Assembly (NCBI RefSeq): GCF_038751955.1
Contig: NZ_JBCEXH010000001.1
Span: 328,300 to 392,299 of the forward strand
Direction: 5' to 3'
DNA from: Methanocalculus natronophilus
GTDB lineage: Archaea > Halobacteriota > Methanomicrobia > Methanomicrobiales > Methanocorpusculaceae
Length of the DNA stretch: 64,000 nt
The position numbers and the translations under genes are program-made. Below, in pieces: positions 40,321 through 44,447 of this stretch; the stretch's first letter is position 1, and the number at the start of each line of letters is the position of its first letter. The notes under the pieces were generated by a model. The model did no database searches. It was not told the DNA's origin and saw nothing but the letters and a program-made list of their open reading frames with translations.

Positions 40321-40935
40321 TTATGCGGCTATGGCCGCAGCCTTCTGTGCCGCAGTACTCACTGCTTCGGACTTGATCACATCGATCCTGCGGATCGGGA
40401 AGATTGTCCGTGATTCTTTGAAGATCTCGCGGGAGATATCACCATTGACAGCAGCTTTTGCAAAGGTTTCATAATCCATCTCTTTTGCGAGACGATCCAC
40501 AACATCCAGCATCTTTGCACGGATTGCATGCACATGCGAGAGCTTTGCACGATTCAGCGTGAAACAGGTAATTGTCACCTGCAGTTCACGGCCGCCCTGA
40601 ACCTTCTTTGTAACAGTTGCATCTATCCGCGATGTCCGCCGTTTCACGTGTGATCGGAGATAGTCACGGGTCACTTCATGGCCGATAAACTCGGTGTATG
40701 CTGCATCTCCTGCAACATTGTTGATCCGGAAACGCATCTTGATGTACTGTTTTGAGTAGTCCTGGATGATCTCACCAAGTGAGACCGCCATCACCCGGCC
40801 GATCAGGTTATCAGGATCTGCCGAGACGATGTCGCCAATATACACTTTACCATAGGTCTCAGGGGTGTAAACTTTGTACCAGCTCTTCGCCTTCCACCCT
40901 TCGACCCTTCGTCCAATTTGCTTCTTTTTTGCCAT
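40321..40935 (-). CDS. rps3ae: 30S ribosomal protein eS1 (S3ae)
   Basis: 204 residues with the S3Ae pattern: basic N-terminus with RRVEGWKAKSWYKVYTPE, ISLGEIIQDYSKQYIKMRFRI-like core (here VSLGEIIQD), and a C-terminal KAAVNGDISREIFKESRTIFPIRRID. Binds 16S rRNA near the mRNA exit. Last gene of a minus-strand operon; its ATG overlaps the pcc1 stop by one base. Confidence 0.9.
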   Translation of the reverse strand: MAKKKQIGRRVEGWKAKSWYKVYTPETYGKVYIGDIVSADPDNLIGRVMAVSLGEIIQDYSKQYIKMRFRINNVAGDAAYTEFIGHEVTRDYLRSHVKRRTSRIDATVTKKVQGGRELQVTITCFTLNRAKLSHVHAIRAKMLDVVDRLAKEMDYETFAKAAVNGDISREIFKESRTIFPIRRIDVIKSEAVSTAAQKAAAIAA

Positions 40936-41207
40936 TATATCACCTTATTTTCATCATTTTCAAGATTATTGCCTTCTTCTGGTTCCGTTGTAGCAGGGTT
41001 GCAGAGTGCATCCGCAACCGAGAGGTTCATCAGATAGTCATCCAGTGATGCGAGGAGTGACCGGATGGGTTTTTCCATGATTACCATCTCGACCAGACCA
41101 TCACGCACGCCTGTCTCCATACCCTCGAGGTTATCTGGAGAGAGGCTGCCTGCAACACAGTCTGGTGAAGCATGGCATGACCTGATCCTGCCTGAGCCAA
41201 TCAGCAT
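40935..41207 (-). CDS. pcc1: KEOPS complex subunit Pcc1
   Basis: 90 residues. The core SLSPDNLEGMETG... then MVIMEKPIRSLLASLDDYLMNLSVADAL matches Pcc1, the small dimer-forming subunit of KEOPS, which installs t6A37 on ANN-decoding tRNAs. The C-terminus carries a short acidic tail. It overlaps recJ by seven bases upstream and eS1 by one base downstream. Confidence 0.85.
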   Translation of the reverse strand: MLIGSGRIRSCHASPDCVAGSLSPDNLEGMETGVRDGLVEMVIMEKPIRSLLASLDDYLMNLSVADALCNPATTEPEEGNNLENDENKVI

Positions 41208-42421: not shown

Positions 42422-42880
42422 CTATCGGGAAAGGAGAATCTCTGCAGTCTCCGGTTTGTATGTCCACCCTTTCGGGAGCTTTCCGGTTCGTGTGTAGTAT
42501 TTCACCAGTCGCCTGACCTTGGATTCGGTCAGCTGGAGCTGGCGCTTGTTATGAACATCCTTTTTATTCTCAGAGAGATGTCTGCGCAAGCCAAGTGCCT
42601 TCTCCATCAGGTTCCTGAGATCTTCGGGGATGTCTGAAACAAGGTTGTTCTCTTCAAGGATTGTACCAAGACGCTTGCCTGTCGCCTTTTTGATGTCAGG
42701 GACACCATATTTGTCCCGCAGCACCATTCCAATGACGGATGAAGAGACACCTTCCTTCTTCATTTCAATAACCTGTTTCTCGATCTCCGCGAGATCGGTG
42801 TTGAACCATTCCGGAACGTCCTTCCTGTTAGGCCGGACTGAACCCGATGATCCTCTCCGTCGTGCATGCATTCGTGCCAT
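42422..42880 (-). CDS. rps15: 30S ribosomal protein uS15
   Basis: 152 residues. Archaeal uS15 with the N-terminal extension [14 protein letters not shown] and the conserved core [20 protein letters not shown]. The ATG at 42880 has GAGGT about six bases upstream; a longer frame to 42955 is unsupported. It heads a four-gene operon with a predicted leader of about 164 bases that folds strongly. Confidence 0.92.
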
Positions 42881-42956
42881 GTATACCTCGAAATTGTTGT
42901 TTATAGCCTGCCGTGCAGAAGAATCCTGCAGGAGTGTCTGGCAGCTGCCATTCACT

Positions 42957-43043
42957 GTAAGTCACGAAAAGAGCCGAAACTGACTCGCCGTAATCCCAAG
43001 CCCCCCCAAAAGGAGCAGTGCTGAAGAAGCACGTCGGACTTAC
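42957..43043 (-). promoter_or_regulatory. Cloverleaf-like structured 5' leader of the uS15 operon
   Basis: On the minus strand GTAAGTC (43043-43037) pairs perfectly with GACTTAC (42963-42957), closing an 87-base domain. Inside are three hairpins: GTGCT/AGCAC around TCTTC, GCTCC paired with a G-rich stretch, and GAGTC/GGCTC around AGTTTC. It is not a tRNA: there is no T arm and the closing helix is not followed by the right spacing. A TATA box (43067-43075) puts the transcription start right at the outer stem. A ribosomal-protein control element or other leader RNA is the likeliest reading. Confidence 0.5.
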
Positions 43044-43051
43044 CTTAGCCA

Positions 43052-43075
43052 GCACATAATGTGCGGTATACTATT
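43052..43075 (-). promoter_or_regulatory. Promoter of the uS15 operon with a 13-base inverted repeat
   Basis: On the minus strand AATAGTATA (43075-43067) is the TATA-like box. Just after it, GCACATTATGTGC (43064-43052) is a perfect dyad lying between the TATA box and the predicted start near 43044, where a repressor would block polymerase. Confidence 0.45.
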
Positions 43076-43119
43076 CATCAGGCAGTATTTTAATAGTATC
43101 GGAAAAGAAGAGCTGGGTT

Positions 43120-44289
43120 TCATCCAGCAGGCGAGTCTGCCCCTCCGGGATACATGCCAACATATGGGGCATTGCAGTCCCCGTGTTCAGGATAAAGAGG
43201 CGTACCCGAGACCAGTTGATAGTCATCGAACCAGTATGCATCCGGGTTCCGTGTGCAGACCATGACTTTGCCCATCTCTCTTGGATTGGCAGCCTGGTGA
43301 TATTTCAGCACGATATGATCATCTGTGCAGGCGGCTATCTCGATCTTGCCGGTTGCATGCGACATCACAAACCGCACACGTTTTGCAATACCTGAGACCC
43401 TGGCACGCGCCTCTTCAAATATCCGGTACCCCTCCTCTACCGGGACCGCATAGATATGATTGCCATGGGTCGGGCGGCACTGGAAGATATAGTAGGGTGA
43501 AATGCCGATAAACGAGAGTTTCTGGAAGAGTTCTGCCAGCACATCAGGAGAATCGTTAATGCCACGGAGAATTGGCGTCTGGTTCAGCACCATCACCCCT
43601 GCATCAGTGAGAGCGGTGACTGCTTTGACTGCTTCTGCTGTGATCTCGCGGGGATGCGTGAACTGGCTCATCACGTAGATCCGCTTCTCTGGAAGGCTGT
43701 ACTCCTGCAGGAGATGAAGAAGATCCGGATCCTCTGAGATCCGCATCGGGTTGTAGGCAGGTAGCTTGCTCCCGATCCTGATAATACTGACATGATCGAT
43801 CCTGCGAAGCTCTTCGATAATCTCCCTGAGCTTCCCTGTCCCAAGCATCAGGGGATCGCCGCCTGTGAGGAGGACGTTTGTTATCTCGGGATGATTTCTG
43901 ATATAGTCAATACCAGCAGAAACATCCGGGGAGACTTCGTCTGCACCAGATACAAAGAGCCGTTTTCTGAAACAGTACCGGCAGAGTCCCCCGCACGAAT
44001 CAGATACCAGGAGAAGGCCTGTCCGTGCATACTTGTGCTGAAGTCCTGGTGCATGCGTATAGGCCGATTCAGATGAGGGGTCGAGATTGCCTTCCTCCTC
44101 CTCGATCTCACCGGGATCGGGGATCACAAGCCGCCTGATCGGATCTGCTGGATCCGACCAGTCGATAAGACCCAGGTAATAGTCACTCGCCTTGAAGGAG
44201 AACCAGTTCAGAACCGCACCTATCTTTTCCCGCTCTTCACTTGAAATCCCTGGGATTTCCGATACAGATGTAATATAGCGTGTTTTCAT
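43120..44289 (-). CDS. KamA-family radical SAM aminomutase-like enzyme, substrate uncertain
   Basis: 389 residues. The radical SAM cluster is C99-x3-C103-x2-C106 and the fold follows lysine 2,3-aminomutase (LLTGGDPL, RIGSKLPAYNPMRI). The PLP lysine is probably K315 in HATGK. The two aspartates that hold the substrate's side-chain amine in lysine aminomutase are not there: the CDLS-type segment reads C271-R272-P-T and the DAPGGGGK-type segment reads S-H-A-T-G-K, two residues shorter. So lysine is doubtful. No acetyltransferase partner (ablB) is adjacent. GGAGGTGA sits five bases before the ATG at 44289. Confidence 0.75.
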   Translation of the reverse strand: MKTRYITSVSEIPGISSEEREKIGAVLNWFSFKASDYYLGLIDWSDPADPIRRLVIPDPGEIEEEEGNLDPSSESAYTHAPGLQHKYARTGLLLVSDSCGGLCRYCFRKRLFVSGADEVSPDVSAGIDYIRNHPEITNVLLTGGDPLMLGTGKLREIIEELRRIDHVSIIRIGSKLPAYNPMRISEDPDLLHLLQEYSLPEKRIYVMSQFTHPREITAEAVKAVTALTDAGVMVLNQTPILRGINDSPDVLAELFQKLSFIGISPYYIFQCRPTHGNHIYAVPVEEGYRIFEEARARVSGIAKRVRFVMSHATGKIEIAACTDDHIVLKYHQAANPREMGKVMVCTRNPDAYWFDDYQLVSGTPLYPEHGDCNAPYVGMYPGGADSPAG

Positions 44290-44447
44290 AATAATCACCT
44301 CCGCTCAGGATACCATGATCGCACCGGACCAATTTCGGTACAACTGATAAAACGGCACACCCCTGACCAGGGCATACAAAGAAGGATGCACCTGCAGTCA
44401 CGTGACCGATAATAACTCTAGAAAGCCAGGTACCTGTGGCATGCAAT

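Follow-up and report, generated by a model that had tools for sequence, protein, structure and literature searches.

A second fold predicted to compete with the rRNA-like junction of archaeal S15-Methanomicrobia leaders, and its possible role as a protein-sensing switch

What kind of RNA precedes the uS15 gene of Methanocalculus natronophilus, and how could it respond to the protein made from its own operon? The question was raised by a window of 64,000 nucleotides of this archaeon's genome, the whole stretch of DNA that was analysed, in which the initial annotation had described a cloverleaf-like leader ahead of a uS15-RecJ-Pcc1-eS1 operon and proposed an archaeal uS15 or other autoregulatory leader not described before to its knowledge. 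Pfam assigns the uS15, RecJ-like (DHH/DHHA1) and eS1/S3Ae genes, but not Pcc1: the 90-amino-acid open reading frame between the RecJ-like and eS1 genes (40935-41207 (-)) has no Pfam match at an E value of 0.001. A radical-SAM gene (43120-44298 (-)) lies directly upstream of the leader promoter.

The leader had been classed correctly, but it is not new as a family. It matches RF03137, the S15-Methanomicrobia leader published in 2020, above the gathering score of that model (Table 1), and this was the sole S15-leader family returned by an Rfam scan of the leader and the single RF03137 match in the M. natronophilus genome, in which RF03136 (S10-Clostridia) has no match. It precedes rpsO in an operon that also holds recJ and rps3ae, in agreement with the table given for the family in PMC7247131. 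As the initial annotation had stated, it is not a tRNA; neither ARAGORN nor Rfam returned one at the leader, and three tRNAs are found elsewhere. Judged by sequence, it is a member of a known leader family whose presumed role is to sense surplus uS15. Of 232 genomes of the class, 209 carry RF03137; none of 14 control genomes does. Among 392 genomes drawn from the phylum it occurs in 82, all of them the window's own genome or members of its genus, family or order, and of the 16 uS15 loci scanned from other lineages of the phylum, two match RF03143 and 14 match neither S15 leader family. What the present analysis adds, with good support, is a second fold, state B, which is absent from the public Rfam model and competes with the rRNA-like fold, state A, within one RNA.

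Relatives were compared at 121 loci, covering 121 of the 209 genomes with an RF03137 match. Four loci (L004, L005, L010 and L038), all with a visible B strand, were dropped for want of a uS15 start by the motif used, which left 117 leaders. The B strand is not recognisable in four of the 117 (L081, L092, L100 and L121), and these were excluded from the forced-fold, hairpin III and along-transcript analyses; for along-transcript folding and tail shuffling, identical leaders were counted once and 109 were kept. Alignment A1 holds 76 leaders from outside the window's family (72 distinct), and alignment A2 holds 27 leaders of the window's own family, with L107 left out.

Table 1. Features of the uS15 leader region, in the order of transcription (positions of the window).
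Feature	Position	Strand	Basis
Predicted TATA box of the leader promoter, TATTAAAAT	43087..43095	(-)	TTA[AT] box at conserved spacing before P0
RF03137 S15-Methanomicrobia leader, core of state A	42990..43065	(-)	70 bits, gathering score 42.2
Hairpin P0 (GCACA/UGUGC; GCACAUUAUGUGC), the 13-base dyad of the initial annotation	43052..43064	(-)	First helix of RF03137
C5 GCUGGCU, 5' strand of helix C	43047..43053	(-)	Pairs with 42985-42979; RNAalifold on A1 and A2; script
Shared 5' strand GUAAGUCC, pairs with A3 or B3	43036..43043	(-)	Pairing in relatives
Hairpin P20 (GUGCU/AGCAC), counterpart of 16S h20	43018..43032	(-)	RF03137 structure line; RNAalifold
Hairpin P21, counterpart of 16S h21	43000..43016	(-)	RF03137 structure line
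A3 GGGAUUAC, 3' strand of state A (h22-like)	42990..42997	(-)	Pairing with the 5' strand in A1
Hairpin III (ACGG.GAGUC/GGCUC...UCGU), third cloverleaf arm	42964..42991	(-)	Own versus swapped pairing energy
C3 AGUCAGU, partner of C5 in state A; shares positions with hairpin III of state B	42979..42985	(-)	
U-run (UUUU) after the apical stem of III	42967..42970	(-)	Present in most relatives
B3 GACUUAC, 3' strand of state B, in the outer helix of the initial annotation	42957..42963	(-)	Pairing in A1; near-invariant in A2
Shine-Dalgarno-like GAGG	42886..42889	(-)	Sequence
uS15 gene (rpsO), 152 amino acids	42422..42880	(-)	Pfam PF08069 and PF00312

The predicted start of the transcript was redrawn by comparison. 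A TTA[AT] box was found in 112 of the 117 leaders examined, and in 108 of them its distance to hairpin P0 is 30 or 31 nt; in the window it is at 43095-43087. Archaeal TATA boxes usually stand about 25-28 nt ahead of the start, and with this conserved box transcription is predicted to begin near 43066. The TATA box that had been placed at 43067-43075 therefore falls on the predicted start itself, and the start is not expected at the outer helix, where it had been put. The perfect 13-base dyad GCACATTATGTGC at 43064-43052 is real, but it would be transcribed, as hairpin P0, because the conserved TATA box stands further upstream. That it is instead a DNA operator bound by a repressor, as had been suggested from a perfect palindrome lying between a TATA-like stretch and the outer helix, we regard as very improbable: it sits inside the predicted transcript, RF03137 has it as its first helix, and in relatives the loop varies in length and grows while the arms are kept, which breaks a DNA palindrome and not a hairpin.

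In state A the leader adopts an rRNA-like three-way junction, in which GUAAgUCC (43043-43036) pairs with GGAUUAC (42996-42990). All 504 cells of this helix A are paired in A1, and four rows show a change from U-A to C-G. RNAalifold, on A1 and A2 alike, returned state A together with an outer helix C (GCUGRCU after P0, with AGUCAG), and a script found a helix of at least seven pairs between the flanks in 106 of the 117 leaders, some at other offsets. The Rfam consensus of RF03137 ends at 42990 and is without helix C, the B strand and hairpin III.

The resemblance to rRNA can be followed in the letters. The 16S of M. natronophilus itself was not found in the assembly; in the 16S of relatives L174-L178, one of them from the window's genus, the 5' side of h22 reads CU(U/A)GG(G/A)ACC and the 3' side GG(C/A)U(C/U)CGACAG. 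Helices h20, h21 and h22 form the 16S junction to which uS15 binds. Its nucleotides, on UCCGAC and CU(U/A)GGGA-type strands in the 16S of relatives, recur in the leader in permuted order: AGUCCGACG comes first and CUUGGGAUU later, the h22 strands of 16S being swapped. The same-genus 16S (L178; CUAGGAACC, GGCUUCGACAG) differs from the leader at a few junction letters and is not the closest match. We read state A as a circular permutation of this 16S junction, in which a loop closes h20 and h22 is open.

State B is the cloverleaf of the initial annotation. Its perfect 7-bp outer helix is there, GUAAGUC at 43043-43037 being complementary to GACUUAC at 42963-42957, and the 87-nt minimum-energy fold does enclose three hairpins within it, at -30.5 kcal/mol (a z of -2.26, with 3 of 200 shuffles reaching this energy). 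The 3' strand, B3, lies beyond the 3' end of the Rfam model; in general form it is GGACUUAC, about 30 nt downstream of A3. In the window, 76 nt separate it from the uS15 AUG at 42880 (42956-42881).

The outer helix has a counterpart in nearly all of the 117 leaders. Among 8-mers beyond state A, the best partner of the 5' strand matches at all eight positions in 58 leaders, at seven in 47, at six in 11 and at five in one, compared with a second-best site that matches at seven in 11, six in 82 and five in 24. In A1, 96.3% of the 572 cells of helix B are paired, slid controls reaching 50.7% at most, and the CUCUUUUCGUGACUUAC stretch is nearly unchanged in A2. Cells with double changes exceed all 500 shuffles for helix A and helix B alike; for neither helix does the number of covarying pairs do so. 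The covariation of helix B is concentrated in one pair (GC in 54, AU in 8 and GU in 8 of A1), with all A-U rows from family f6, and may reflect few events. RNAalifold did not return helix B on A1 or A2. The third arm, hairpin III (segments GAGUCAG at 42986-42980, and GGCUC with UUUU at 42975-42967), pairs better with its own sides than with sides swapped between genomes, at -11.6 versus -9.6 kcal/mol (81 distinct leaders; s.d. of means 0.17), a comparison that retains the effect of relatedness. Three leaders (L088, L075 and L099) keep helix B and have lost the U-run after hairpin III.

A and B are mutually exclusive, with one 5' strand for two 3' partners, and A with C excludes B with III at two places, helix C occupying the strand of hairpin III. 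The exclusion, read from the pairing, is well supported. State B leaves GGGA unpaired, and therefore the rRNA-like junction would be taken apart. The cloverleaf is indeed kept in relatives, but it is one of two competing folds, and it disrupts the other, the rRNA-like state A, to which uS15 is expected to bind and which the initial annotation had omitted.

Folding calculations suggest when each state would prevail. With either fold forced (helix C not forced), B is the lower in energy in 112 of 113 leaders, the mean gap being 7.5 kcal/mol; in the window the values are -67.6 kcal/mol for B and -60.6 kcal/mol for A. Along the transcript, in 109 distinct leaders, the mean probability of A, P(A), is 0.61 with the C3 strand out and 0.54 just before B3; at B3 completion it is 0.05, with P(B) at 0.83. 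In the window P(A) goes from 0.62 before B3 to 0.001 at its end, where P(B) is 0.99. With dinucleotide shuffling of the RNA from A3 through B3, P(A) at this last point remains 0.32 (0.44 in the window), and the native value is the lower in 100 of 109 leaders. These are equilibrium values for each transcript length at 37 °C and without protein, distinct from kinetics; as computed, A is favoured until the B strand is transcribed and B afterwards.

We propose that the leader is a two-state switch in which uS15 must capture A before B forms, the A-bound RNA being repressed and the B form expressed, and we give this reading a probability of about two in three. The nascent RNA would fold to A while the B strand is still untranscribed; surplus uS15 could catch A in the interval before B3 and hold it, so that the operon is repressed; without uS15 the RNA would refold to B, which would not bind uS15, and translation would follow. 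The direction of the switch, with uS15 holding A and repressing, is inferred from the general logic of ribosomal-protein leaders.

A simpler account makes A the sole functional fold, on which bound uS15 blocks or traps the ribosome, with B3 kept for some other purpose, such as RNA stability or processing. A is, after all, the fold given by both Rfam and RNAalifold, and it is fully paired in all rows of A1. This account has to accommodate a B strand whose complementarity to the shared 5' strand persists in two archaeal classes although their sequences differ, and a calculated flip to B in 95 of 109 Methanomicrobia leaders and 23 of 28 Halobacteria leaders, and we consider it improbable.

The weakest step of the proposed switch, and again an inferred one, is the read-out by which A represses. 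In 59 short-spacer leaders the calculated accessibility of the start region is 0.43 in A versus 0.59 in B; with the freed strand shuffled it is 0.39, no higher than in native A, so specific occlusion of the start region in A was rejected. In 50 long-spacer leaders, the window included, it is 0.505 in A and 0.529 in B, which is no difference. Long spacers between leader and AUG occur in families f1 and f5 (L072-L074, L093, L109, L118, L105 and L120) as well as in the window, and in L120 the AUG is 439 nt from the leader core. Two further candidates were set aside. As an anti-Shine-Dalgarno element, the U-run gives duplexes that do not surpass shuffled ones (mean z +0.44 over 56 distinct leaders with a short spacer and +0.42 over 23 with a long one). 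Pairing of the freed strand with codons 2-4 is weak in Methanomicrobiales, at -5.17 for own versus -4.82 for swapped partners (s.d. 0.13, with relatedness retained). For long-spacer leaders such as that of the window, ribosome trapping or termination at the U-run, possibly factor-dependent, could provide the read-out.

Termination might also be the whole mechanism. Here hairpin III and the U-run would form an archaeal terminator, and uS15 on A would alter the frequency with which RNA polymerase stops at that site. A U-run does follow hairpin III in most leaders, and the main text of the 2020 paper notes poly-U after the Methanomicrobia leaders as possible termination signals (PMC7247131). Most of these runs are of only four U, however, the three leaders named above are without one, and the Halobacteria leaders examined have no comparable conserved run; furthermore, helix C consumes the 5' strand of hairpin III, so that binding of uS15 would weaken a hairpin terminator. 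Attenuation is therefore an unlikely, though credible, explanation.

The two-state reading extends to a second family. RF03143, the S15-Halobacteria leader, is present in 57 of 59 genomes drawn from Halobacteria, including Haloferax volcanii. Its 5' strand is GGGAAC.GCACGRCCGC and its partner in Rfam is GCGG.AGUGC. Positions 3-8 of the model hold a conserved, apparently unpaired GGGAAC, whose complement, GUUCC, stands immediately ahead of the start codon. Its leaders have a second 3' partner, GCGGUCNGUGCNGUUCC, with mostly 15-16 complementary pairs, and pairing with this strand would account for the retention of the apparently unpaired GGGAAC. In 29 of 30 leaders the second strand ends 8-13 nt before the AUG; the exception is at 36 nt, with a 10-pair match. 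One leader of 31 (L168) failed the 5' pattern of this search, and two of the 30 (L161 and L172) fall outside the folding, accessibility and codon-replacement sets. Helix B is paired in 92.7% of 464 cells and helix A in 92.0% of 261; covariation of helix B in these leaders is not above shuffles. P(A) drops from 0.97 ahead of B3 to 0.13 past it, compared with 0.88 for a shuffled tail, the native value being lower in 28 of 28 leaders; once the first codons are added to the folded RNA, P(A) rises again to 0.27, against a P(B) of 0.66. For the start region, the unpaired value is 0.79 in state B compared with 0.62 in state A; state B exceeds A by over 0.1 in 18 of 28 leaders, and never the reverse. 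As far as sequence and modelling indicate, the Halobacteria leader follows the same two-partner plan as RF03137.

The beginning of the coding sequence has a pattern of its own. Codons 2-3 are GCA CGA in 31 of 31 Halobacteria uS15 genes (L142, L144-L173), and later in these genes GCA makes up 70 of 323 alanine codons and CGA 43 of 416 arginine codons. Among Methanomicrobiales, 67 of 117 uS15 genes have CGA as their third codon, versus 90 of 1,857 later arginine codons. As a means of sequestering the start codon, GCA CGA was rejected, as synonymous change did not open A (0.543 native, 0.447 changed; 28 Halobacteria leaders), and the pattern is not explained by the switch model.

In its general form, the proposal is that both archaeal S15 families are timed protein-sensing switches: a downstream second copy of a strand of the S15 site, absent from the Rfam models, would, once transcribed, dismantle that site, leaving uS15 just the time between the copies in which to act. 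In Halobacteria, where the second copy lies just before the start codon, it would be released against that codon whenever uS15 keeps the first fold in place. For this wider claim we see the odds as about even. A second partner strand in both families would offer a concrete, testable mechanism by which an archaeal mRNA could respond to a protein during transcription, and would extend two Rfam models, RF03137 and RF03143.

Bacterial S15 (rpsO) leaders autoregulate through mimicry of the 16S site of S15, and that of Escherichia coli has two alternative folds; to our knowledge, the bacterial leader folds are unrelated to the archaeal ones. Archaeal ribosomal-protein leaders were discovered by comparison, and S15 leaders with rRNA mimicry in Methanomicrobia and Halobacteria were described by Eckert and Weinberg in 2020, who call the significance of the regions common to both S15 leaders unclear (PMC7247131). 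The main text of that paper contains no word beginning with 'alternative', 'mutually exclusive' or 'sequester' (PMC7247131). We found no description of the B strand in the literature searched, which covered archaeal rpsO/uS15 autoregulation, the Rfam names, citing papers and r-leader switches (passages of PMC10085705 and of the main text of PMC7247131).

The window's leader resembles RF03137 as published in its score of 70 bits, its position upstream of rpsO with recJ-like and eS1 genes, and its rRNA-like three-way junction (PMC7247131). It differs in adding helix C, the B strand and hairpin III, and the alternative fold is absent from the main-text passages of that paper (PMC7247131). Compared with the window's leader, RF03143 has a different secondary structure around the junction and a longer second partner ending 8-13 nt before the AUG, and no Shine-Dalgarno-like sequence was seen in the RF03143 leaders examined. 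What the two share is a common clan, identical junction letters and the two-partner design.
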